Assembly (NCBI GenBank): GCA_016190945.1
Contig: JACPPO010000129.1
Location: 1-43,866, forward strand
Length of the DNA: 43,866 nt
Reading direction: 5' to 3'
Source of the DNA: Acidobacteriota bacterium
GTDB lineage: Bacteria > Acidobacteriota > Vicinamibacteria > Vicinamibacterales > UBA2999
Both the position numbers and the translations under genes were made by a program. Below are positions 21,730-34,714 of the stretch, piece after piece. Every line of letters starts with the position of its first letter. The stretch's first letter is position 1. The notes under the pieces are model-generated. The model did not search any database. It saw only the letters and a program-made list of their open reading frames with translations, and was not told the DNA's origin.

Positions 21730-23145
21730 TTGCCAAACTCATATGATGTCGTTGTCATCGGTGCGGGTACCGGCGGTTATATCGCGGCGATCCGCGCGTC
21801 CCAGCTCGGCAAGAAGGTTGCCGTGGTCGAGAAGCAACAGTCGCTCGGCGGAACCTGCCTGATCTGGGGATGCATTCCAACGAAGGCGCTCCTCGAGCAC
21901 GCGCACGCTTTCAAGATCATTCAAAGCGCGAGCGAATGGGGTGTCACCTTGCCGTACGGCGCTCCGGCCATCGACATGCGCCAGGTGCATGCGCGCAAGG
22001 ACAAGGTCGTCAGCGGCCTGACGAAGGGCCTCGAGTTCCTCTTCAAGAAGAACAAGATTGACTGGATCAAGGGCACCGCGCGGCTCGCCGGCGAGGGCCG
22101 GGTCCATGTGTTCGAAGGCGAGAAGCAGACGCTCGATGCCGGAGACATCATCGTCGCCACCGGATCCTCGCCACGCGGCATTCCGGGCATCGAAATCGAT
22201 CGCAAGCGGATCATCACGAGTGACGCCGCGATCCACCTCGGTGAAGTGCCCAGGTCGCTCGTCATCCTCGGAAGCGGAGCCGTTGGCGTCGAATTCGCGT
22301 CGATCTACCGTCGATTCGGGAGCGAGGTCACGATCGTCGAGCTGCTGCCGCGCCTGGTGCCGGTCGAAGACGAGGCGATCTCGGTGGAGCTTGAGAAGTC
22401 GTTCAAGAAGCAGGGCATCCGATCGCTGACGGGCACGAAGGTGACCAAAGCCACCGCGACAGGAACGGGCGTGGACATCGAAGCGCAGGGGCCCGATGGC
22501 AGGAGTCAGCAGCTCGCCGCGGATATTCTGCTCGTGGCGACAGGCCGGGGCCCCGTGACGACCGGACTTGGGGCCGAGGCGCTTGGCGTCCGGATGGAAA
22601 AGGGCTACATCCAGGTTGATTCGATGTACCGCACGTCGGTGCCGAACATCGCCGCAATCGGCGATGTGATCGCGCTCGAGGGCCGCGTGCACCCGCAACT
22701 TGCCCACGTATCGTCGGCCGAAGGGATACTGGTGGCGGAGCGTCTCGCCGGACGGGACGTGCGGCCGCTGAACTACGACCACGTACCCAGCTGCACCTAC
22801 TGCGATCCGGAAATAGGGAGCGTGGGCCTCACGGAAGCCGCGGCGAGGAGCCGAGGCTTCGACGTGCGGGTCGGGTCGTTCCCGTTCGGCGTCCTCGGGC
22901 GTGCGAAGATGGCGGGCGAAACTGAAGGCTTCGTCAAGGTGGTGGCGGACAAGCGGTACGATGAGCTGCTGGGCGTTCACATGATCGGTCCACGATCCAC
23001 GGAGCTGGTGGCGGAAGCGGTGCTGGCGCTGCGCCTTGAGTGCACGGTGGAGGAGCTGATCAGGACGATCCACGCGCACCCGACGTTCTCGGAGGCTGTC
23101 GGCGAAGCCGCCCGCGCCACTTACGGCGCGGCGTTCCACATGTAA
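21730..23145 (+). CDS. lpdA: Dihydrolipoyl dehydrogenase (E3)
   Basis: This flavoenzyme reoxidises dihydrolipoamide in 2-oxo acid dehydrogenase complexes. The 471-aa protein has the FAD-binding start YDVVVIGAGTGGYIAAIRAS and the redox disulfide in GGTCLIWGCIPTKALL (CX4C). The NAD-binding segment LVILGSGAVGVEFASIYRRFG and the C-terminal HAHPTFSEAVGEAA with the active-site His are also present. The start is TTG at 21730 with AGGAG 5 nt before it. It is followed 2 nt later by the E2 gene and then lipB. The WGCIPTK variant of the usual NVGCIPSK is found in some E3 paralogues. Confidence 0.94.
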   Translation: MPNSYDVVVIGAGTGGYIAAIRASQLGKKVAVVEKQQSLGGTCLIWGCIPTKALLEHAHAFKIIQSASEWGVTLPYGAPAIDMRQVHARKDKVVSGLTKGLEFLFKKNKIDWIKGTARLAGEGRVHVFEGEKQTLDAGDIIVATGSSPRGIPGIEIDRKRIITSDAAIHLGEVPRSLVILGSGAVGVEFASIYRRFGSEVTIVELLPRLVPVEDEAISVELEKSFKKQGIRSLTGTKVTKATATGTGVDIEAQGPDGRSQQLAADILLVATGRGPVTTGLGAEALGVRMEKGYIQVDSMYRTSVPNIAAIGDVIALEGRVHPQLAHVSSAEGILVAERLAGRDVRPLNYDHVPSCTYCDPEIGSVGLTEAAARSRGFDVRVGSFPFGVLGRAKMAGETEGFVKVVADKRYDELLGVHMIGPRSTELVAEAVLALRLECTVEELIRTIHAHPTFSEAVGEAARATYGAAFHM

Positions 23146-23147
23146 CG

Positions 23148-24380
23148 ATGCCTACTCCCATCGTCATGCCCCAGATGGGCGAATCGATCGCGGAAGGAAC
23201 GATCGTCCGCTGGATCAAGAAAGTCGGCGACCAGGTCGAGCGCGACGAGCCGCTGTTCGAAATCACGACCGACAAGGTGGACGCCGAGATTCCATCTCCG
23301 GCGACGGGAATCCTTACCGAGATCATGGCCAAGGAAGGCGACACGGTCTCGGTGAACACCGTCGTCTGCACGATTCAGCAGGCGGGTGAGGAGCCGAGAC
23401 AGGAAGCGGCCCCGGCCCGGGTGCCGGCCCCTGTGACGACCGCGACCCCGCGTGTTGCCCGTCCGTTGTCAAGCCAGGCGACGCGCGACGATCTTCGCCG
23501 CCAGAAATCGTCGCCGCTCGTCCGCCGGATCGCGCGCGAGCACAACGTTGACGTGGCCCGGATTGCCGGCTCGGGCCTCGGGGGTCGCGTCACGAAGCAG
23601 GATATTCTCGACTATCTCGGCCGGGGTCAGGAATCGGGGATCAAGGATCAGGAATCCCCGACCCCCGGCCCCCGACTCCAGACAGAGGGCGACCGCGTCG
23701 AGATCCAGCCGCTCTCGCCGATGCGCAGGAGGATCGCCGAGCACATGGTCCTCAGCCGGCGCACGTCGGCCCACGTGCATTCGGTGTTCCACGTCAACTT
23801 TTCCGATGTGGAGAGGATCCGGCAGCAGAAGAAAGCGGAATACGAACGACTCGGCGCGAAGCTGACCTACATGGCGTTCATCGCCAAGGCGGTCATCGAC
23901 GCTCTTCGGCGGCACCGGGTCGTCAATGCGTCGCTGGACGGCGACAACGTCCTCTACAAGAAAAGCGTCAACCTCGGGATCGCCGTGGCGCTTGAAAGCG
24001 GCCTCATCGTGCCGGTCATCAAGAACGCAGACGAGAAGAACCTTCTCGGCCTGAGCCGCGCCATCGCCGACGTCGCCGAGCGCGCGCGCGCGAAGCGGCT
24101 GAAGCCGGAAGAAGTGCACGGCGGGACGTTCACCATCACGAATCCGGGGCAGTTTGGCGCGCAGTTCGGCATGCCGATCATCAACCAGCCGCAGGTTGCC
24201 ATCCTTGGCGTCGGCACCATCGAGAAGCGGCCAGTAGTCGTCGACGACGGTATTGCCATCCGCACGATGGCGTACCTGACGCTTGGCTACGATCACCGAC
24301 TTGTTGACGGGGCCGTCGCCGATCAGTTCATGTCAGACGTGAAGAAACACCTCGAGCATTTCGACCCGAACCAGGTGTAG
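23148..24380 (+). CDS. Dihydrolipoamide acyltransferase (E2) of a 2-oxo acid dehydrogenase complex
   Basis: The 410-aa protein has one lipoyl domain (MPQMGESIAEGTIVRWIKKV, with the lipoylated Lys in EITTDKVDAEI), a peripheral-subunit-binding domain (SPLVRRIAREHNVDVARIAG, then GRVTKQDILDYL) and the catalytic core ending in YDHRLVDGAVADQF (HxxxDG). ATG 23148 starts the lipoyl domain; the track's start at 23040 lies inside lpd. The linker after the binding domain (about residues 160-182, QESGIKDQESPTPGPRL) is encoded by a short-word GGAATC/GGGGATC repeat with inverted arms. Such a cluster is normally intergenic. No E1 gene is in the window, so pyruvate, 2-oxoglutarate and branched-chain substrates remain possible. 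Confidence 0.92.
   Translation: MPTPIVMPQMGESIAEGTIVRWIKKVGDQVERDEPLFEITTDKVDAEIPSPATGILTEIMAKEGDTVSVNTVVCTIQQAGEEPRQEAAPARVPAPVTTATPRVARPLSSQATRDDLRRQKSSPLVRRIAREHNVDVARIAGSGLGGRVTKQDILDYLGRGQESGIKDQESPTPGPRLQTEGDRVEIQPLSPMRRRIAEHMVLSRRTSAHVHSVFHVNFSDVERIRQQKKAEYERLGAKLTYMAFIAKAVIDALRRHRVVNASLDGDNVLYKKSVNLGIAVALESGLIVPVIKNADEKNLLGLSRAIADVAERARAKRLKPEEVHGGTFTITNPGQFGAQFGMPIINQPQVAILGVGTIEKRPVVVDDGIAIRTMAYLTLGYDHRLVDGAVADQFMSDVKKHLEHFDPNQV
23629..23682. repeat. Short-word repeat inserted in frame in the E2 linker
   Basis: The words GGAATC, GGGGATC, AGGATC and GGAATC follow each other, then a run of CCCCCG words. TCGGGGAT (23634-23641) and ATCCCCGA (23654-23661) form an 8-bp inverted repeat. 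The length keeps the reading frame and lies in a flexible linker, where an insertion would be tolerated. Confidence 0.65.
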
Positions 24381-25051
24381 TGCGCACGCTTGAGATCCGC
24401 CGGCTAGGTGTCGTTCGGTATCAGGAGGCGCTCGCACTGCAGCGGGCGCTTGTCGAAGAGCGCCGCGCGGACCACGTGCCCGACCTGCTCCTTCTGCTTC
24501 AGCATCCCGCCGTGATCACGCTTGGCGTCAAAGGCGACGGCGGCCGCTCGAATATCGTCGCCGGGGCGTCGCGGCTGGCCCAGCTCGGCATCGACATCTC
24601 AGAGACCGGGCGCGGCGGCGACGTGACCTATCACGGGCAGGGGCAGATCGTGGGTTATCCGATCCTCGATCTGCGTCCCGATCGGTGCGACGTGCGTCGC
24701 TATGTTCGTGACATCGAGGAAGTCATGATTCGCGTGTGCGCCGACTACGGTGTACCGGCAACGCGGCTCGAAGGCCTGACCGGAACCTGGATCGGGAACG
24801 ACAAGATCGGGGCGATAGGCGTTCGGATCTCGCGGTGGATCACGAGCCACGGATTCGCATTCAACGTGAACACGAACCTGGACCATTTCGATCTCATCGT
24901 GCCGTGCGGGATATCGGGCCGAGGGGTGACGTCGCTTCAACGCGCGACGGGCCGGGAGATTTCAGTCAGCGAGGTGGACGACGCGGTGATCCGGCACTTC
25001 TGCGACGTGTTCGAACGCGAGACTACGAACGCGATGCAGAAGTCAGCGTAA
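24380..25051 (+). CDS. lipB: Octanoyltransferase (lipoate biosynthesis)
   Basis: LipB transfers octanoyl from acyl carrier protein to the lipoyl domains of E2 and GcvH. The 223-aa protein has GRGGDVTYHGQGQIVGYP, the catalytic Lys in NDKIGAIGVRI, the SHGFAFNVNT motif and the acyl-accepting Cys in VPCGISGRGVTSL. GTG 24380 overlaps the E2 stop by one base, so lpd, E2 and lipB are one operon, and LipB would modify the E2 encoded beside it. No lipA is in the window. Its last 29 nt overlap the convergent CorC-like gene. Confidence 0.95.
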   Translation: MRTLEIRRLGVVRYQEALALQRALVEERRADHVPDLLLLLQHPAVITLGVKGDGGRSNIVAGASRLAQLGIDISETGRGGDVTYHGQGQIVGYPILDLRPDRCDVRRYVRDIEEVMIRVCADYGVPATRLEGLTGTWIGNDKIGAIGVRISRWITSHGFAFNVNTNLDHFDLIVPCGISGRGVTSLQRATGREISVSEVDDAVIRHFCDVFERETTNAMQKSA

Positions 25052-26333
25052 CAACGGCCTCGGCGACGCCACGGCCGGCCGTGGCCGTGACTTCAATCCG
25101 CGCATTGCGCCAGGTGACAGCGTCGCCGGAGGCGGCCGGCCGACCCAGCAGCAACAGCACGAGGCCGCTGATTGTCGTCACTTCGGGGTGATCCAGGGTG
25201 CAGCCAAGCGCCGTTCCCGCTTCCTCCAGACGCACGGTTCCACGCACCCGTAGTCGACCCGCTGCTTCCCGCACGATCGACGTCCGGCCGTGACCTTCTT
25301 CGATGTCTCCAACGACCTCTTCGAAGAGGTCCTCCATCGTGACGAGCCCCGCGGTACCGCCATGCTGATCCATCACCACCGCCATCTGCGCGCGGTAGCG
25401 ACGCATGACGGCGAGCACCTCGTCGAGCGGGGCCGGTCCGGGCACGTAGGGCAGCGGCCTGGCGTCGCGGGCGGTGACGGGCCTGTTCGCCACCAGATGC
25501 CGCAGCGCCTCCTTGATGTGAAGGCTGCCGATGATGTTGTCCAGATCGCCGACGAAGATGGGATATCGCGTGTGAGGATTGGCCTGAACGATCGCGCTCA
25601 ACTCGTCCGGCCCCGTACCTACCGCGATCCCGGTCAGCATGACGCGCGGCACCATGGCCTCGCCGGCCGTGAGGTCGCCGAACTCAAACAGCTCCCGGAG
25701 AATCTGCCCTGACTCCCCTCGCAGCATTCCGCCTTCCTGGCTTTCCTCGATGATGTACTGGAGCTCCTCAGTCGTGTGGTACCGCTCGGCGTCGACTTCG
25801 TGCCGCCGCACGCCAACCAGCCGCAGCAGGCCGTTGCCGATCGCGTTCAAGCTGACGATCAGGGGCCGCAGCGCCGCCTCGAGCGCCAGAATCAACGGGG
25901 AGACATAGAGCACGGTGCGCGCGGCCCGCTGGAGGGCAAGCGCCTTGGGAACCATTTCTCCCATCACAATGTGCAGGTAGGTCAGCACAGACACCGCCAC
26001 AACGCTCGCCACCGCATGTGCCGCGATCCATCGGTTTTCCTCGAACGGTTCCAGTCGCACCGCGATCCACTGCGCGATTACGTGCTCCCCGTACATGCCA
26101 AGCCCGAGGCTTGCCACGGAAATTCCGACCTGGGTGGTCGCGATGTATCGGTCCTGCCGCCTGGGATCCTCGAGAATGCGCGCTACACGCTGCGCCAGTC
26201 GGTTCCCCTGGCCGGCCTGGTGCTCGATGCTCGCTCGTGGCGCGCCGACGATGGCAAACTCCGCTGCGACAAACAATCCGTTGGCAACCACCAGCAGGAG
26301 GATGATGCCAGCCGCGATCACCAGGTCGGTCAC
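25023..26333 (-). CDS. CNNM/CorC-family membrane protein (DUF21-CBS-CorC)
   Basis: This 436-aa inner-membrane protein of the HlyC/CorC type is implicated in Mg2+ (and Co2+) transport. It has a DUF21/CNNM membrane region (NGLFVAAEFAIVGAPRASIE, GLGMYGEHVIAQW, MGEMVPKALALQ), a CBS pair (MVPRVMLTGIAV, TRYPIFVGDLDNIIGSLHIK) and a C-terminal CorC_HlyC domain (DQHGGTAGLVTMEDLFEEVV). It overlaps the homologous upstream gene by 4 nt (ATGA). The pair probably arose by duplication and is co-translated. Its 3' end overlaps lipB on the opposite strand. Confidence 0.9.
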   Translation of the reverse strand: MTDLVIAAGIILLLVVANGLFVAAEFAIVGAPRASIEHQAGQGNRLAQRVARILEDPRRQDRYIATTQVGISVASLGLGMYGEHVIAQWIAVRLEPFEENRWIAAHAVASVVAVSVLTYLHIVMGEMVPKALALQRAARTVLYVSPLILALEAALRPLIVSLNAIGNGLLRLVGVRRHEVDAERYHTTEELQYIIEESQEGGMLRGESGQILRELFEFGDLTAGEAMVPRVMLTGIAVGTGPDELSAIVQANPHTRYPIFVGDLDNIIGSLHIKEALRHLVANRPVTARDARPLPYVPGPAPLDEVLAVMRRYRAQMAVVMDQHGGTAGLVTMEDLFEEVVGDIEEGHGRTSIVREAAGRLRVRGTVRLEEAGTALGCTLDHPEVTTISGLVLLLLGRPAASGDAVTWRNARIEVTATAGRGVAEAVVTLTSASRS

Positions 26334-27649
26334 TCTTCCGTCCTCGTGTCTTCCGGCACGACTCGGCGCGCCAGCACGGAATCAAGGGCTCGATCCGCGA
26401 CCCGTTCCACCTCGAACTCGTAATCGCCCACGGTGGCACGGTCGCCTGGAACCGGCAGGTGGCCAAGGGCGGCCGTCACGAGTCCGCCGATGGTGGTCGC
26501 ATCTGTTTCCCATTGGGTGTTCAGCTGCGCCGCTGCATCGTCCACCGCCATCGCCCCAGGAACCCGAAGTCCGCCGTCGGGCAGCGCCTCCACCACCGGG
26601 CCTTCGGACTTGAACTCGTCACCAACTTCGCCGAGCAGCTCCGACAGCACGTCTTCCAGGGTCAGTAGCCCCGCCGTTCCACCGAACTCGTCGACCACGA
26701 GCGCCTGGTGCGAGTGCCGCTCCCGCAGCTCGCGCAGCACGCGGTCGGCCGTCACGCTCTCGTGCACGCTGGCAATCGGCCGCAGCAGGCTCGCGAGCGT
26801 GGCGTCCGGTCCGCCGCCGACCTGCCATCGAACCAGGTCCTTCGTATGCAGCATGCCGACGACGTTGTCGACTGAGCCTCGGTACACGGGCAGTCGCGAG
26901 AAAGGGCTTTGCGCGACGATGCCGATGACATCGCCGAGCGGCGTGCCGATGTCGAGCGCCGAAATCCTTCGGCGGGGCACCATCAACTGCTTCGCCTGAC
27001 GCAGGTTCAGCCGCAGGGCGCGCTGCAGCCGGCGGTGCTCATCCGGCTCGAGGAGGCCGCCATCGCGGCTTTCGGCGATCAGCAGCTCGATTTCATCTGG
27101 TGAATGAATATGGCGGTGGGTCTGCGACGGCGATCCAAGAAGCCGGAGCAGGAGCAAGCCGGTACCGTTCAGCCATTTGATGAAAGGGCGGTACACCCAT
27201 AGCGACGGCACCATCGGCACCACCGTATAGAGCGCCGCGTGCGTCGGGTATTGCAGCGCCAGCGACTTCGGCACCAGTTCGGCAAAGATGACCTGGGCGA
27301 CGGTCAGTGCGAGGAGCACCGCCACGGCGGACGTCGACTGTGCCGCCACCTCCTGCAGGCCTCCCAGCCGGCCGAAGAGCGGCGCCAGCGACACGGCAAT
27401 GGTCCGCTGGGCGTACGCGCCCAGTACGAGGCTGGAGAGCGTGATGCCGATTTGGCATGCGGCAATGTAACGGTCGAGCGCGGCGGGCGATTCGATCAGC
27501 GGCAACAGCCAGCCGGCCAGCGGGTTCCCGTCGGAGGCCAGCTGCTGGACGCGGCTGCGCCGCACGCTCACGGCCGCGAATTCGGCGCCGACGTACACGG
27601 CGTTGACCAGGATCAACGCCACGACGATCAGGAGGGTCGGCAGGATCAC
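26330..27649 (-). CDS. CNNM/CorC-family membrane protein, second copy
   Basis: This 439-aa paralogue has the same layout: DUF21 membrane region (NAVYVGAEFAAVSVRRSRVQ, FAELVPKSLALQ), CBS pair (MVPRRRISALDIG, SRLPVYRGSVDNVVGMLHTK) and CorC domain (DEFGGTAGLLTLEDVLSELL). The track's start at 27976 would run into the peptidase gene. GTG 27649 begins the first membrane helix (VILPTLLIVVALILV), 19 nt after the peptidase stop. No clear Shine-Dalgarno is seen, so coupling to the peptidase stop is plausible. Tandem CNNM pairs are frequent and may form heterodimers. Confidence 0.88.
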   Translation of the reverse strand: MILPTLLIVVALILVNAVYVGAEFAAVSVRRSRVQQLASDGNPLAGWLLPLIESPAALDRYIAACQIGITLSSLVLGAYAQRTIAVSLAPLFGRLGGLQEVAAQSTSAVAVLLALTVAQVIFAELVPKSLALQYPTHAALYTVVPMVPSLWVYRPFIKWLNGTGLLLLRLLGSPSQTHRHIHSPDEIELLIAESRDGGLLEPDEHRRLQRALRLNLRQAKQLMVPRRRISALDIGTPLGDVIGIVAQSPFSRLPVYRGSVDNVVGMLHTKDLVRWQVGGGPDATLASLLRPIASVHESVTADRVLRELRERHSHQALVVDEFGGTAGLLTLEDVLSELLGEVGDEFKSEGPVVEALPDGGLRVPGAMAVDDAAAQLNTQWETDATTIGGLVTAALGHLPVPGDRATVGDYEFEVERVADRALDSVLARRVVPEDTRTEE

Positions 27650-27668: not shown

Positions 27669-29198
27669 TCAGCGCGTGCTGAATTGAGGCCGATCCTGCC
27701 GCGTGGCGAGACGCGCCGCCAGCTCCAGCACGAGCGTCGCGACCCGCGCGGCGCCCGCCGCGTCGATAAGGTTCCAATCGTCGCTCGGGCGATGGTAGTC
27801 GTCGTGGAAGCCCGTGAAGAAATGCAGCGCCGGCACGCGACGGTCGAGGAACGAAGAGTCGTCGCTGCGTGCGGCACCCGGGCCGCCGCGGCGCACATCG
27901 AGACCGGCGATTCGGCCCGTCGCGTCAACGTCCGCCTTGAGAGAGGGCATTCTATCGAGGCCACCAACCTCGACACGGCCGTTGGAACGACCGATCATGT
28001 CGAGGTTCAGCATCGCGACCGTGCCTGCCAGGGGGACCACGGGAGAGCTCGCATAATGCGCCGAGCCGAGCAGGCCCCGCTCTTCGCCTGCGAACGCCAC
28101 GAAGACGAGGGACCGCGGGAAGCGCGCCCGATCGGCCGCTGCAGCACCGGCAATCTCGATCAGCGCCGCGATGCCTGAGGCGTTGTCGTCGGCGCCGTTG
28201 TGGATCTCACCGGTGCGCTCCGGAGTACTGGAAAAACGGCCGCCCAGGCCGACATGGTCGTAATGAGCACCGAGCACAACCGCCTCCTCGTTCCTCGCAC
28301 CATCCGAGCCGTCGAGAACGCCGACAACATTGCGCACGATCCGGCGTTTCACAAAGAGGCGCTGTGCGTAGTCGATTCTTCCGCCGGTGAGCGCGCGCGA
28401 CCGCGGTATCAGATCGCGATCGATCTGGACAGCGAGACCGTCAAGATCCCAGGCCCGCAGCAGCACGGCCAATGCCTCGCGACGGACGCGCAGGACGGGA
28501 ATCTCGTGATCTTCCGCATCAGATTCGATCGAGAAGAGCCGGTAGTCGGCTTGATCGACGCGATGAGTGGGGTCTGACACGACGAGCAGGGCCCGCGCGC
28601 CACGGCTGCGCGCCGCGAGCGCCTTGCTGGGCAGGGTGGTCTCGCCAAGCGGCTGGGCGCCATTCAAACGACTGCCGCGCCGGTTCTCCTGCGGCTCGTG
28701 CGAGAAAATGAGCACGGCTTTGCCGGCGACATCGAGACCGGTGTAGTCGTCGTAGTTGAGTGCCGGCGCGGAAATACCATAGCCGGCAAACACGAGAGGA
28801 AGATTCTTCAGATCGATCGCAGCCGAGGACGTTACGCCTGTCGGCGTTGCGGCGAGCGGGTAATACGACTCGCCGAGCGACAATCGGACCGACTGCGCGG
28901 CCCCACGCACCACGAGGCTGTTGCCCTCGCCAACGCTGAGGCCCGCGTCCAGCTCGAACGGCTGAAACCAGTCACCGTTCCGTCCGCCCGGCCGCAGGCC
29001 GGCCGCCTTGAATTGCGCGGCGATGTACTCGGCCGCCTGTTCGAGCCCGGCGCTTCCGTTGCCCCGTCCCTGCAGGTCATCGGAGGCCAGGAACTTGATG
29101 TGGCCGAGCAGCGCCCCCGGCTCGATCGGCGGTGTTGCCGCCCCGACACCGCCAGCCAAGAGCGCGAGGAGGGCGGCCGAGCGAAGAAGCCCGTGCAT
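27669..29198 (-). CDS. Exported M28 family metallopeptidase with PA domain
   Basis: This 509-aa aminopeptidase has a signal peptide (MHGLLRSAALLALLAGGVGA), a protease-associated insert (FAGYGISAPALNYDDYTGLD) and an M28 zinc peptidase domain. Metal and catalytic residues are seen in order: LGAHYDHVG, NGADDNASG, AFAGEERGLLGS, LNLDMIGR and HDDYHRPSDD. It is expected to release N-terminal amino acids from peptides in the periplasm or outside. It lies 14 nt after the dehydrogenase-like gene and 19 nt before the CorC gene, in one minus-strand operon. The operon's functional logic is not clear. Confidence 0.93.
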   Translation of the reverse strand: MHGLLRSAALLALLAGGVGAATPPIEPGALLGHIKFLASDDLQGRGNGSAGLEQAAEYIAAQFKAAGLRPGGRNGDWFQPFELDAGLSVGEGNSLVVRGAAQSVRLSLGESYYPLAATPTGVTSSAAIDLKNLPLVFAGYGISAPALNYDDYTGLDVAGKAVLIFSHEPQENRRGSRLNGAQPLGETTLPSKALAARSRGARALLVVSDPTHRVDQADYRLFSIESDAEDHEIPVLRVRREALAVLLRAWDLDGLAVQIDRDLIPRSRALTGGRIDYAQRLFVKRRIVRNVVGVLDGSDGARNEEAVVLGAHYDHVGLGGRFSSTPERTGEIHNGADDNASGIAALIEIAGAAAADRARFPRSLVFVAFAGEERGLLGSAHYASSPVVPLAGTVAMLNLDMIGRSNGRVEVGGLDRMPSLKADVDATGRIAGLDVRRGGPGAARSDDSSFLDRRVPALHFFTGFHDDYHRPSDDWNLIDAAGAARVATLVLELAARLATRQDRPQFSTR

Positions 29199-29212: not shown

Positions 29213-30061
29213 CTACCCGCCCAGAGCGGTTTGAAGGCGCACGTGCTCGCGAGTGTTGAGCTCGGGAACGCGCGTCTGCGCGATGCCGCGCGCGGCAAGC
29301 CGGGCAGGGAGGGCGCCGGCGCGGTTTCTCACGCCGAATTCGCCCACTAGTTGCGTCAGGACGCTGAACGACCGTCTCGAGTCGCACAGGATGCCTTCAG
29401 CGACGCGTGCGGCGGCGGCCCCGAGCGTGTAAGGGCCGGGAGGCCAGAGGCGGACCGCCCGCGCCTCGATTCGCGCAAGCTGGACCTGCGACAGCATGCG
29501 CTGCAGGGCGTAACCTCCGATCGACGCTTCGCTCCACGGCACGACGAATCCGGCCGGCGGCGTGCCAAGCACCGTCAGCATGACCTCGCGCGGGGAGCAG
29601 CCGGCTTCCATCGCCACGATAGCCGTGATTGCCGATGCGAGTGCTTCGGGAGATGAACCAATAAGACGTTCGCGAGGGATTCGCGTTTCGTCAGCTGCCC
29701 TGCTGAGCAGCTCGACCTGCGAGGCGCCGGCAAACACAATCGGGGCATCGACGAGGTAGGGAAGGATCCGCGTCAGCATCGCCAGTCCTTCTTCACCCTG
29801 CCACTCGCTGAGGTGTGCGCGGAACCGATCGGCAATCACGCAGACGCTGCAGCCGGCGAGCCGGCTCTCATCGCCGGTGCCATCCAGGCGTGCGTGAAAA
29901 TCGTCGACGGCGCCCGACTGCTGAATGTCGAGCGCTTTCCCTGCGGCCGCATCGGCGACCTCATCCACGAGCAGCACACGGCTGACCCGGTCGCAAGACG
30001 CGAGCGCCTGCGCGGTCGCACCGCCAATGTCGCCCGCGCCGACGATTGCCACCGTTGTCAT
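29213..30061 (-). CDS. Malate/lactate dehydrogenase-like protein lacking catalytic residues
   Basis: The 282-aa protein has the LDH/MDH Rossmann start (TTVAIVGAGDIGGATAQALA), the acidic residue at the end of the second strand (LLVDEVADAAAGKALDIQQS) and the downstream helices of the family. The usual active-site His motif (G-G/E-H-G-D) is replaced by VLGTPPAGFVVPW. The segment that normally carries the substrate-binding Arg reads IGSSPEALASAITA. NAD(H) binding may remain, but malate or lactate turnover looks unlikely. ATG 30061 is chosen; in-frame ATGs at about 30091 and 30082 are alternatives. Annotation pipelines would probably call it malate dehydrogenase. It heads a four-gene minus-strand operon. 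Confidence 0.75.
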   Translation of the reverse strand: MTTVAIVGAGDIGGATAQALASCDRVSRVLLVDEVADAAAGKALDIQQSGAVDDFHARLDGTGDESRLAGCSVCVIADRFRAHLSEWQGEEGLAMLTRILPYLVDAPIVFAGASQVELLSRAADETRIPRERLIGSSPEALASAITAIVAMEAGCSPREVMLTVLGTPPAGFVVPWSEASIGGYALQRMLSQVQLARIEARAVRLWPPGPYTLGAAAARVAEGILCDSRRSFSVLTQLVGEFGVRNRAGALPARLAARGIAQTRVPELNTREHVRLQTALGG

Positions 30062-30177: not shown

Positions 30178-30257
30178 CATGACGTCACTGGCCGTCGCCA
30201 CCGATGGCAACAGAAGCGACCTCAAGGGTTAACTCGGCGCGTGTATTGTAATAGGCG

Positions 30258-30983
30258 GTGAAGGCGTTCACAGACAAAGTCGCGATCGTGACGGGCGGTT
30301 CCCGCGGAATCGGCCTGGCGATTGCGCGCGCCCTGCTCGAGCGTGGCGCACGTGTGGCGATTACGGCCACCTCCGACGCAACGCTCGAAACCGGTGCGGC
30401 GGCACTGGAAAAAGTGTCAGGCGCCGGAGCGGTGCTGCCGATTCGCGCCGATGTGCGGCGTCACGAGGAGATGGAACAGGCGATCGATGCCGTCGCCCGG
30501 CATTTCGGCGGCCTTGATGTGCTCGTGAACAACGCCGGTGTCGGCGTGTTCCGCCCCGTCGCTGAAATGACGGTCGAGGAATGGCACCGCATCATCGACA
30601 CGAATGTGAGCGGGGTGTTCTACTGCTGCCGGGCCGCGCTGCCGCACCTACGGAAGCGTGACGGCGGTTGGATCATCAACATCAGCAGCCTTTCCGGCAT
30701 GAATCCGTTTCCTGAGGCCGCCGCGTATTGCGCCTCGAAGGCGGCCCTCAACGCATTCAGCGAGGCCCTCATGCAGGAAGTGAGACACGACGGCATCCGA
30801 GTCGCCTATGTCATGCCCGGGTCCGTGCGCACCGATTTCAGCGGTCGGTCGCCCGGATCCGACGACTGGAAGCTCGCGCCGGAAGACGTCGCGCGGGTCG
30901 TCATGGACCTGATTGCCCATCCGTCACGGAGCCTGCCGAGCCGCGTCGAGATACGCCCCGCCCGGCCGCCGAAGAAGGGCTGA
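30258..30983 (+). CDS. Short-chain dehydrogenase/reductase (SDR)
   Basis: This 241-aa classical SDR has the NAD(P) motif VTGGSRGIGLAIARAL, NNAGVGVF, the catalytic Ser in NISSLSG and the YxxxK motif in YCASKAALNAFSEAL. A Pro-Gly segment (YVMPGSVRTDF) follows. The start is GTG 30258 (MKAFTDKVAIVTGG). The substrate cannot be inferred; FabG-like ketoacyl reductases and sepiapterin-type enzymes share these motifs. Its stop overlaps the next small gene by one base, and a pseudokinase gene follows, so it belongs to a three-gene operon. Confidence 0.92.
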   Translation: MKAFTDKVAIVTGGSRGIGLAIARALLERGARVAITATSDATLETGAAALEKVSGAGAVLPIRADVRRHEEMEQAIDAVARHFGGLDVLVNNAGVGVFRPVAEMTVEEWHRIIDTNVSGVFYCCRAALPHLRKRDGGWIINISSLSGMNPFPEAAAYCASKAALNAFSEALMQEVRHDGIRVAYVMPGSVRTDFSGRSPGSDDWKLAPEDVARVVMDLIAHPSRSLPSRVEIRPARPPKKG

Positions 30984-31243
30984 TGGACACAATGTCGGCC
31001 TTCGACAAGCACCGCGACGCGCTCGAGGTTCACGAGACGATGATGGGCTCCGTCAACGGGCGCGTCGCCGTAGCCCTGGATCTGTTGACTGACGCCCTCG
31101 CCATGGTGGGGCAGCATGGCGTCTATTGCCAGAGCACGCGGGTACCCGGGACACCCACGCTCGACATTGCTCTTGTCCTGGAGCAGATCGGCGACGCCAA
31201 GGAGCTGCTTCAGAGCGTCATCGAACTGGAGCGGTCGGGATAG
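30983..31243 (+). CDS. Small conserved-looking protein of unknown function (86 aa)
   Basis: I do not recognise a family. ATG 30983 overlaps the SDR stop (TGATG), which supports a real gene. The protein (DTMSAFDKHRDALEVHETMM onwards) is soluble and mostly helical, with a repeated amphipathic pattern in ALDLLTDALAMVG and ALVLEQIGDAKELLQSVIEL. A short Thr/Pro-containing loop lies in the middle. There is no signal peptide and only one Cys. The track lists it as the end of a longer frame starting inside the SDR gene. Confidence 0.65.
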   Translation: MDTMSAFDKHRDALEVHETMMGSVNGRVAVALDLLTDALAMVGQHGVYCQSTRVPGTPTLDIALVLEQIGDAKELLQSVIELERSG

Positions 31244-33640: not shown

Positions 33641-34714
33641 TCACGCAGGTAACGCTGTCAGCGCCGCCGTGACCGCGTTCTTCATGTCGGCCGTCGTGGC
33701 CCGGCCGCCGAGGTCAGGCGTCTTCACGCGCTCGTCGCCGATGACGCGCTCGATCGCCCGCAGGACGGCGTCGTGCGCCGCGTGCTCTCCGAGATGCTCG
33801 AGCATCATCGCGCCCGCCCAGATCGCCGCAATCGGATTCGCGACGCCCTTTCCCGCGATGTCGGGCGCCGAGCCGTGGATCGGCTCGAAGGTCGAGGGCG
33901 TGGTCCGGTCCGGATTGATGTTGCCCCCGGGCGCCACGCCAAGGCTGCCGGAAATGGCGGACCCGATGTCCGTGAGAATATCGCCGAACATGTTCGACGC
34001 GACGATGACGTCGAGCGACTGGGGATGCGTGATCATGCGGGCCGCGAGCGCGTCGACGTGATACTTCCGGAGAGTCACGTCCGGAAAATCCCGCGCGACG
34101 TCGGCGACAACCTCGTCCCACAACACCATCGAGTGCTGAAGCGCGTTCGATTTCGTGGCGCTCGCCAGGAGCTTTCGAGGACGCGATCTCGCGAGGGTGA
34201 AGGCGTACCGGGCGATCCGTTCGATGCCTCGTCGTGTGAAGATCCCGGTCTGTTCGGCAAGCTCGTCCGCGGTCCCCGCGTGCTTGCGGGCCCCGACACC
34301 ACAGTACTCGCCCTCGGAGTTCTCACGGACGCAGATCATGTCGATGTCCGCCGTCGTCCGGCCGCTGAGCGGCGAGGCAATGCCCGGCAGCAGCCGCATC
34401 GGCCTCAGGTTGACGTATTGCCGGAGCCTCTTGCGGAAGGGAAGGATCAGCTCGCCCGCGGAAATGTGATCGGCGACGCGTGGATCCCCGATCGCGCCGA
34501 AATAGATGGCGTCGAACGCGCGCAGCCGATCGAGAGCGTCCCCGTCCGCCATGCGCCCGTTGCGGAGGTAGAAATCACATCCCCATGGAAACTCAGTGAA
34601 CTCGCAGGCGAAGCCTCCCCGCGCCGCCACGATCTTCATGACGTCGATGCCGGCGGGAATGACTTCCTGCCCGATGCCGTCTCCGGCAATCACTGCTATG
34701 CGATAAGTTTTCAT
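33641..34714 (-). CDS. Tartrate/D-malate dehydrogenase of the isopropylmalate dehydrogenase family
   Basis: This 357-aa NAD-dependent beta-decarboxylating dehydrogenase starts IAVIAGDGIGQEVIPAGIDV. The substrate Arg residues are in RKRLRQYVNLRPMRLLPG. VRENSEGEYCGVG, the Lys in SATKSNALQHSM and the metal-binding Asp residues in NMFGDILTDIGSAISGSLG are intact. YVNLRPMRLLPG and the GVGAR segment fit the tartrate/D-malate dehydrogenase branch better than LeuB or Icd. ATG 34714 is chosen; the track's longer start (34885) includes a short-word repeat. A sodium symporter gene lies upstream on the same strand and could import the substrate. Confidence 0.85.
   Translation of the reverse strand: MKTYRIAVIAGDGIGQEVIPAGIDVMKIVAARGGFACEFTEFPWGCDFYLRNGRMADGDALDRLRAFDAIYFGAIGDPRVADHISAGELILPFRKRLRQYVNLRPMRLLPGIASPLSGRTTADIDMICVRENSEGEYCGVGARKHAGTADELAEQTGIFTRRGIERIARYAFTLARSRPRKLLASATKSNALQHSMVLWDEVVADVARDFPDVTLRKYHVDALAARMITHPQSLDVIVASNMFGDILTDIGSAISGSLGVAPGGNINPDRTTPSTFEPIHGSAPDIAGKGVANPIAAIWAGAMMLEHLGEHAAHDAVLRAIERVIGDERVKTPDLGGRATTADMKNAVTAALTALPA

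Follow-up and report, generated by a model that had tools for sequence, protein, structure and literature searches.

An MDH-like protein of Vicinamibacterales without the catalytic residues of malate dehydrogenase

The MDH-like gene and its neighbourhood

The window, by which the whole stretch of 43,866 nucleotides is meant, belongs to a 1.96-Mb MAG that is 78% complete. At 29213-30061 on the minus strand it contains a gene for a protein of 282 amino acids with whole-length homology to malate dehydrogenase (MDH) and with the MDH catalytic residues absent. An earlier note made from the sequence alone had reported an MDH-like open reading frame at exactly these coordinates. The frame runs from 30061 to 29213, and a plus-strand reading of the interval is ruled out by stop codons. 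The start methionine shares one column across 31 aligned orthologues. Scanning the window for Rfam families and tRNAs gave no matches.

Downstream on the same strand lie genes for an M28 peptidase with a PA domain (27669-29198; Pfam PF04389) and for two CorC/CNNM proteins (26330-27649 and 25023-26333), both of which match the Pfam families CNNM, CBS and CorC_HlyC. The operon order given previously, namely MDH-like protein, peptidase, CorC, CorC, is thus correct in the window. As a clue to function, however, it is not supported, since the peptidase is present in 19 and CorC in 16 of the 49 loci long enough to tell. With such minority occurrence the case for these proteins as functional partners is weak.

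The most conserved neighbour is instead a short-chain dehydrogenase/reductase (SDR) gene at 30258-30983 on the plus strand, whose product scores over the cut-off of NCBIfam NF005594. It is divergent from and adjacent to the MDH-like gene in 56 of 62 loci of the order, the 62 being 68 loci minus six from f16, a family of a sister order in the same class, and from G261, a genome of another class. Genes for LipB and for a 2-oxoacid dehydrogenase E2 subunit are found a few genes downstream on the opposite strand, in 42 and 39, respectively, of the 49 sufficiently long loci. In place of the SDR gene, the f16 loci have two genes for squalene/phytoene synthases and one for an amine-oxidase-like protein, probably hpnC, hpnD and hpnE, which come after the MDH-like gene. 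The synteny around the MDH-like gene may be ancestral rather than functional.

Several other features of these regions were noted. Genes for dihydrolipoyl dehydrogenase, the E2 subunit and LipB occupy 22003-25048 on the plus strand of the window, a block conserved in most of the order. An 86 amino acid frame just past the SDR gene (30983-31243, plus strand) recurs with 67-88% identity in many relatives. At 33644-34693 on the minus strand, an isopropylmalate-dehydrogenase-like protein is encoded that passes the NCBIfam tartrate dehydrogenase model TIGR02089 (488 vs 470 bits). The f16 loci L125 and L126 come from genomes G059 and G060, and the frames abut in L125.

Start signals

In 34 of 49 family members TANAAT is found at a distance of 3-16 nt ahead of the start codon, as against 0.3 expected from shuffled sequences and none of 19 LDH/MDH controls. 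A Shine-Dalgarno-like sequence was found for 1 of the 49 compared with 10 of the 19 controls. A -10 box so near the start together with scarce Shine-Dalgarno sequences would fit leaderless mRNAs. In the window, a -10-like box, TACAAT (30245-30250, minus strand), lies between the divergent genes. It adjoins the start of the SDR gene, and the MDH-like ATG follows about 180 nt downstream. The near-palindromic context of the box, TATTACAATA, is readable toward the SDR gene as well. The two divergent start codons are as little as 23 nt apart in some relatives, so both genes may be served by one near-symmetrical -10 box; promoters of this bidirectional type are known (PMC10268837). The putative leaderless-type promoter was noted at 30245-30258 of the window and upstream of the MDH-like gene in loci L035-L075.

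Homology to MDH and the NAD site

The window protein passes the cut-off of Pfam Ldh_1_N (30.4 vs 27 bits), but this is the only one of the curated cut-offs of the Ldh_1 superfamily that is passed. Ldh_1_C falls short (18.5 vs 22.6), and the NCBIfam MDH and LDH models are all far under their cut-offs, for instance PRK06223 (89.7 vs 283) and TIGR01763 (80.7 vs 351.85). The earlier warning that automatic annotation would mislead thus describes a real risk, given the Ldh_1_N match, albeit a mild one given the failure of the other models.

By sequence, LDH-like MDHs are the nearest proteins of solved structure, among them 1uxi, a Chloroflexus-type MDH (E 1.8e-19). Identity to MDH is 25-30%, the motif GKALD is common to the protein and the LDH-like MDHs, and a profile of the family matched the MDH profile over the whole length (99.8%). 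AlphaFold2 was run with alignments of four and three rows, giving mean pLDDT values of 63.6 and 52. The four-sequence model has a pTM of 0.67 and a usable Rossmann half, while pLDDT is below 50 at residues 165-186, the active-site loop, and at the C-terminus, so that the model does not decide the geometry of the pocket. When the model was used with Foldseek the best matches were all MDH or LDH, MDHs coming first, and the closest PDB structures were MDHs. The two-domain LDH/MDH fold and whole-length homology are therefore both present, the model behind the Foldseek part being of modest confidence, and as judged from its sequence the protein is a homologue inside the LDH/MDH superfamily.

The dinucleotide-binding glycines are contained in GAGDIG (residues 8-13; 30023-30040, minus strand), where G8, A9, G10 and G13 are invariant in 50 of 50 paralogues. 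The Asp at the end of beta-2, D33 (29963-29965, minus strand), is found in all 50 paralogues and in 15 of 15 MDHs. With GxGxxG and this Asp both invariant, the Rossmann part is as well kept as had been claimed. As in the rest of the family, D33 presumably gives a preference for NAD(H) over NADP(H), and the protein seems capable of NAD binding.

Loss of the MDH catalytic residues

Residue counts refer to an alignment of 50 MDH-like orthologues and 15 ordinary MDHs from the same order, and R102, R109, N140, D168, R171 and H195 are given in LDH numbering. In MDH the first shell of the active site contains R102, R109, L112, N140, L167, D168, R171 and H195 and, further, M199, G236, G237, I239, V240, S245, A246 and P250 (PMC4109310). 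At the first eight columns the window protein has A, Q, a gap, A, A, L, A and P, respectively, and at the second eight F, a gap, a gap, A, V, P, G and L. A144 and A113 stand at the positions of Arg171 and Asn140.

The same losses run through the family, well outside what chance would give. The D168 column is hydrophobic and holds L in 33, F in 9, V in 4 and A in 2 of the 50 aligned members, and the R171 column A in 46, S in 2, M in 1 and G in 1. The N140 column is A in 34 of 50 and otherwise P, T, S, G or I. At H195 there is P in 36 of 50 and His in one. The R102 column is mostly a gap or Ala, Arg is found at R109 in 11 of 50 members, and L112 is deleted in all 50. Among the ordinary MDHs of the order the whole catalytic set is kept in 15 of 15. 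The single His at the H195 column belongs to L071 (3139-3984), where it appears as GRHGR; it is probably a coincidence, as the remainder of the catalytic set is not restored.

In the window protein SSPEALASAIT (residues 136-146; 29624-29656, minus strand) occupies the place of MAGVLDSARMS in MDH, and therefore D168 and R171 are both gone. The segment GTPPAGFVVPW (residues 166-176; 29534-29566, minus strand) stands at the position of the catalytic His loop GxHGD, in place of GGHGDTMVPLPR. Thus the His195-Asp168 relay is replaced by P and L, and Arg171, Asn140 and the Arg residues of the mobile loop at 109 and 102 are missing too. A conserved His elsewhere that could take the role of H195, which would have contradicted the earlier note, was sought in the 50-row alignment and none was found, the best His column being 23/50 at residue 56 in the NAD-binding half. 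Nor is any Tyr or Cys well conserved in the 50 members, so no relocated acid/base of the usual kind is apparent, and a relocated catalytic His was rejected. The sole conserved Lys, K42 (45/50), sits in the NAD-binding half.

The earlier note had called the catalytic His and the substrate Arg absent, and had pointed to a possible clade with the same replacements. Both residues are indeed missing and the clade exists, but the note was too modest about the extent of the loss, given the further replacement of R102 and N140, the Q at R109 and the shorter substrate loop. Since the defining catalytic features fail, the protein ought not to carry a malate or lactate dehydrogenase annotation. That it is a functional malate or lactate dehydrogenase in which some residues are unusual might be argued from its best scores being to MDH. 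There is, however, no Arg for the substrate carboxylate, no His/Asp relay and no mobile loop of full length, and the genomes usually encode an ordinary MDH too. We regard this reading as highly improbable, and catalysis of the MDH or LDH reaction through the known mechanism is very unlikely.

Family-specific invariants

The family has conserved residues of its own. The stand-in for the mobile substrate loop that carries R102 and R109 is the shortened DR...EWQGEEG (residues 78-92; 29786-29830, minus strand), in which D78 follows beta-4 (48/50), W87 (43/50) lies within the stub of the former loop and E86 is conserved in 40 of 50 members. The former His loop contributes P169 (46/50). After a deletion, LWPPGPY (residues 205-211; 29429-29449, minus strand) stands for the MDH pocket segment LVGTSAWYAPG, and its W206 (49/50), P207 (50/50), P208 (47/50) and G209 (44/50), which differ from the MDH residues at the same columns, cover the segment around S245-A246. 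W176 (50/50) was rejected as a novelty of the pocket, since LDHs have a Trp at the aligned position. According to the alignment, most of the family invariants (D78, W87, P169, W176 and W206-P-P-G) fall in substrate-pocket segments of MDH.

Such a pattern might be expected of a new NAD(H)-dependent enzyme whose remodelled pocket takes a different, more hydrophobic substrate and in which some other residue does the chemistry. A precedent for W87 exists in the Trp that became the specificity residue as apicomplexan LDH arose from MDH (PMC4109310), and the gene is adjacent to the SDR gene and close to dehydrogenase genes. D78 and E86 are, however, the only conserved acidic candidates near the pocket, no His, Tyr or Cys is conserved and K42 is in the NAD-binding half. 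Moreover, LDH/MDH members with altered specificity keep R109, D168, R171 and H195 (PMC4109310), all of which are lost or unreliable here. A new enzyme therefore seems somewhat unlikely, though it is a serious alternative.

Distribution, origin and selection

The paralogue is present in about 133 of 162 genomes of the order (tabulated count); families f4 and f11 and genus g75 of family f14 are without it. More distant members were found in 5 of 14 genomes of f16 and in the single genome G261 (E 4e-61). They too are without the catalytic set, and those of f16 lack the Trp motifs. Nothing else scored above the level of ordinary MDH among 396 genomes across the phylum, with six candidates scored per genome. 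A contig scan of genomes with the single sequence from the window gave three loci, and no relatives on plasmids and no published description of the family were found. In a tree with an LDH outgroup all the MDH-like members form one clade (100/100) on a long stem, MDH being the other branch.

In four close pairs dN/dS is 0.19-0.26, which indicates purifying selection, and therefore the protein is in use. Loss of all the catalytic residues, in a MAG that is 78% complete, could have meant a decaying pseudogene or a sequencing or assembly artefact. An open frame with the same replacements and its own invariants across most of the order, the purifying selection and the conserved -10 element refute this, and the chance that it is correct is negligible. 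What is found is the combination expected in the sequence of a pseudoenzyme, which the protein may be: residues of the parent lost, fold conserved and selection purifying.

An ordinary MDH with all of its residues normally co-occurs in the genomes that hold the paralogue, and the idea that the MDH-like protein replaces the MDH of the cell is unsupported. This co-occurrence, and the naming of LDH-like MDHs as tetramers in PDB titles, would suit a role as regulatory or structural subunit in a complex with the ordinary MDH, comparable to other catalytically dead paralogues of oligomeric enzymes. Against such an assembly, identity to MDH is low and an Ldh_1_C protein is missing from at least seven paralogue-bearing genomes that are 90-99% complete, though gaps in the MAGs could explain the latter; we estimate that the missing MDHs are at about the level expected from incompleteness. 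An MDH subunit appears quite improbable. Genomes G007, G057 and G101 (97-99% complete) are examples with the MDH-like gene and without an Ldh_1_C protein, hence with no ordinary MDH found, which may again reflect MAG gaps.

Discussion

The loss of the catalytic residues, the gain of invariants particular to the family and the retention of the gene under selection indicate a job other than that of MDH. The explanation towards which we lean, if only just, is a neofunctionalised, non-catalytic NAD(H)-binding paralogue of MDH that would act as a sensor or partner. A redox sensor or a new activity, the two options of the earlier note, are both possible. The preferred explanation is favoured by the low dN/dS, the single fully supported clade, the ordinary MDH alongside it in most genomes, the divergent SDR gene in 56 of 62 loci, the 99.8% profile match and a model nearest to MDH structures. 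It is favoured also by replacement of all the catalytic positions in 50 orthologues when they are kept in 15 of 15 MDHs, by the invariant NAD site and by the want of a conserved His, Tyr or Cys as acid/base, with K42 in the NAD-binding half. Against it, D78 and E86 are conserved and could serve new catalysis, the conserved residues of the pocket segments would suit a new substrate no less than a sensed ligand, and the AlphaFold2 model is weak exactly at the active-site loop. A non-catalytic sensor or partner is more likely than a new dehydrogenase.

In such a sensor or partner, NAD(H) would be bound and no hydride transferred, and the rebuilt pocket would probably hold a second ligand that is not a 2-oxoacid, or a protein surface. 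The bound state would then be passed on, the protein being a sensor or a regulatory or structural partner. The most constant candidate for a partner would be the divergently transcribed SDR, although the sister order has squalene-synthesis genes in that place and no SDR.

The nearest known proteins are the LDH-like tetrameric NAD-MDHs, such as those of Chloroflexus aurantiacus (1guy/1uxi) and 3nep, which share the fold, whole-length homology, GxGxxG, the Asp after beta-2 and GKALD. The MDH-like protein differs from them in having no reliable R102, R109, N140, D168, R171 or H195, a shortened substrate loop and a deletion before LWPPG. Apicomplexan LDH likewise arose from an MDH duplicate, and its former specificity loop carries a conserved Trp; there, however, an insertion occurred and the other catalytic residues stayed (PMC4109310), whereas the present family has a deletion and keeps none. 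A functional likeness may exist to NmrA-type proteins such as HSCARG, which has been named an NADPH sensor (PMC4690889), in that a Rossmann dehydrogenase fold would sense a nicotinamide nucleotide. Those proteins belong to the SDR superfamily and not to LDH/MDH, and sensing by the MDH-like protein is only putative. Within the LDH/MDH family, roles beyond or apart from malate or lactate turnover are given for plastidial NAD-MDH, which moonlights in the FtsH12 complex (Schreier 2018, as cited in PMC9574505), and for UEVLD, which carries a C-terminal LDH domain (PMC12513931). Both are eukaryotic and of other lineages, and are likened by role and not by catalytic residues.

Members of the LDH/MDH family with altered specificity normally keep the His, Asp and Arg, while here the whole set has been lost and the family has invariants of its own instead. 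A match to Ldh_1_N in Acidobacteriota genomes of this group thus need not mean a malate or lactate dehydrogenase. The boldest extension would be an order-wide group of NAD(H)-responsive regulators derived from MDH, with a new pocket and a divergent promoter shared with the SDR, which would make up a novel class of bacterial sensors for redox state or metabolites; we consider this unlikely but worth stating. Most genomes of an abundant soil order keep the family, and it would offer a clear example from nature of a duplicated MDH that has acquired another function.
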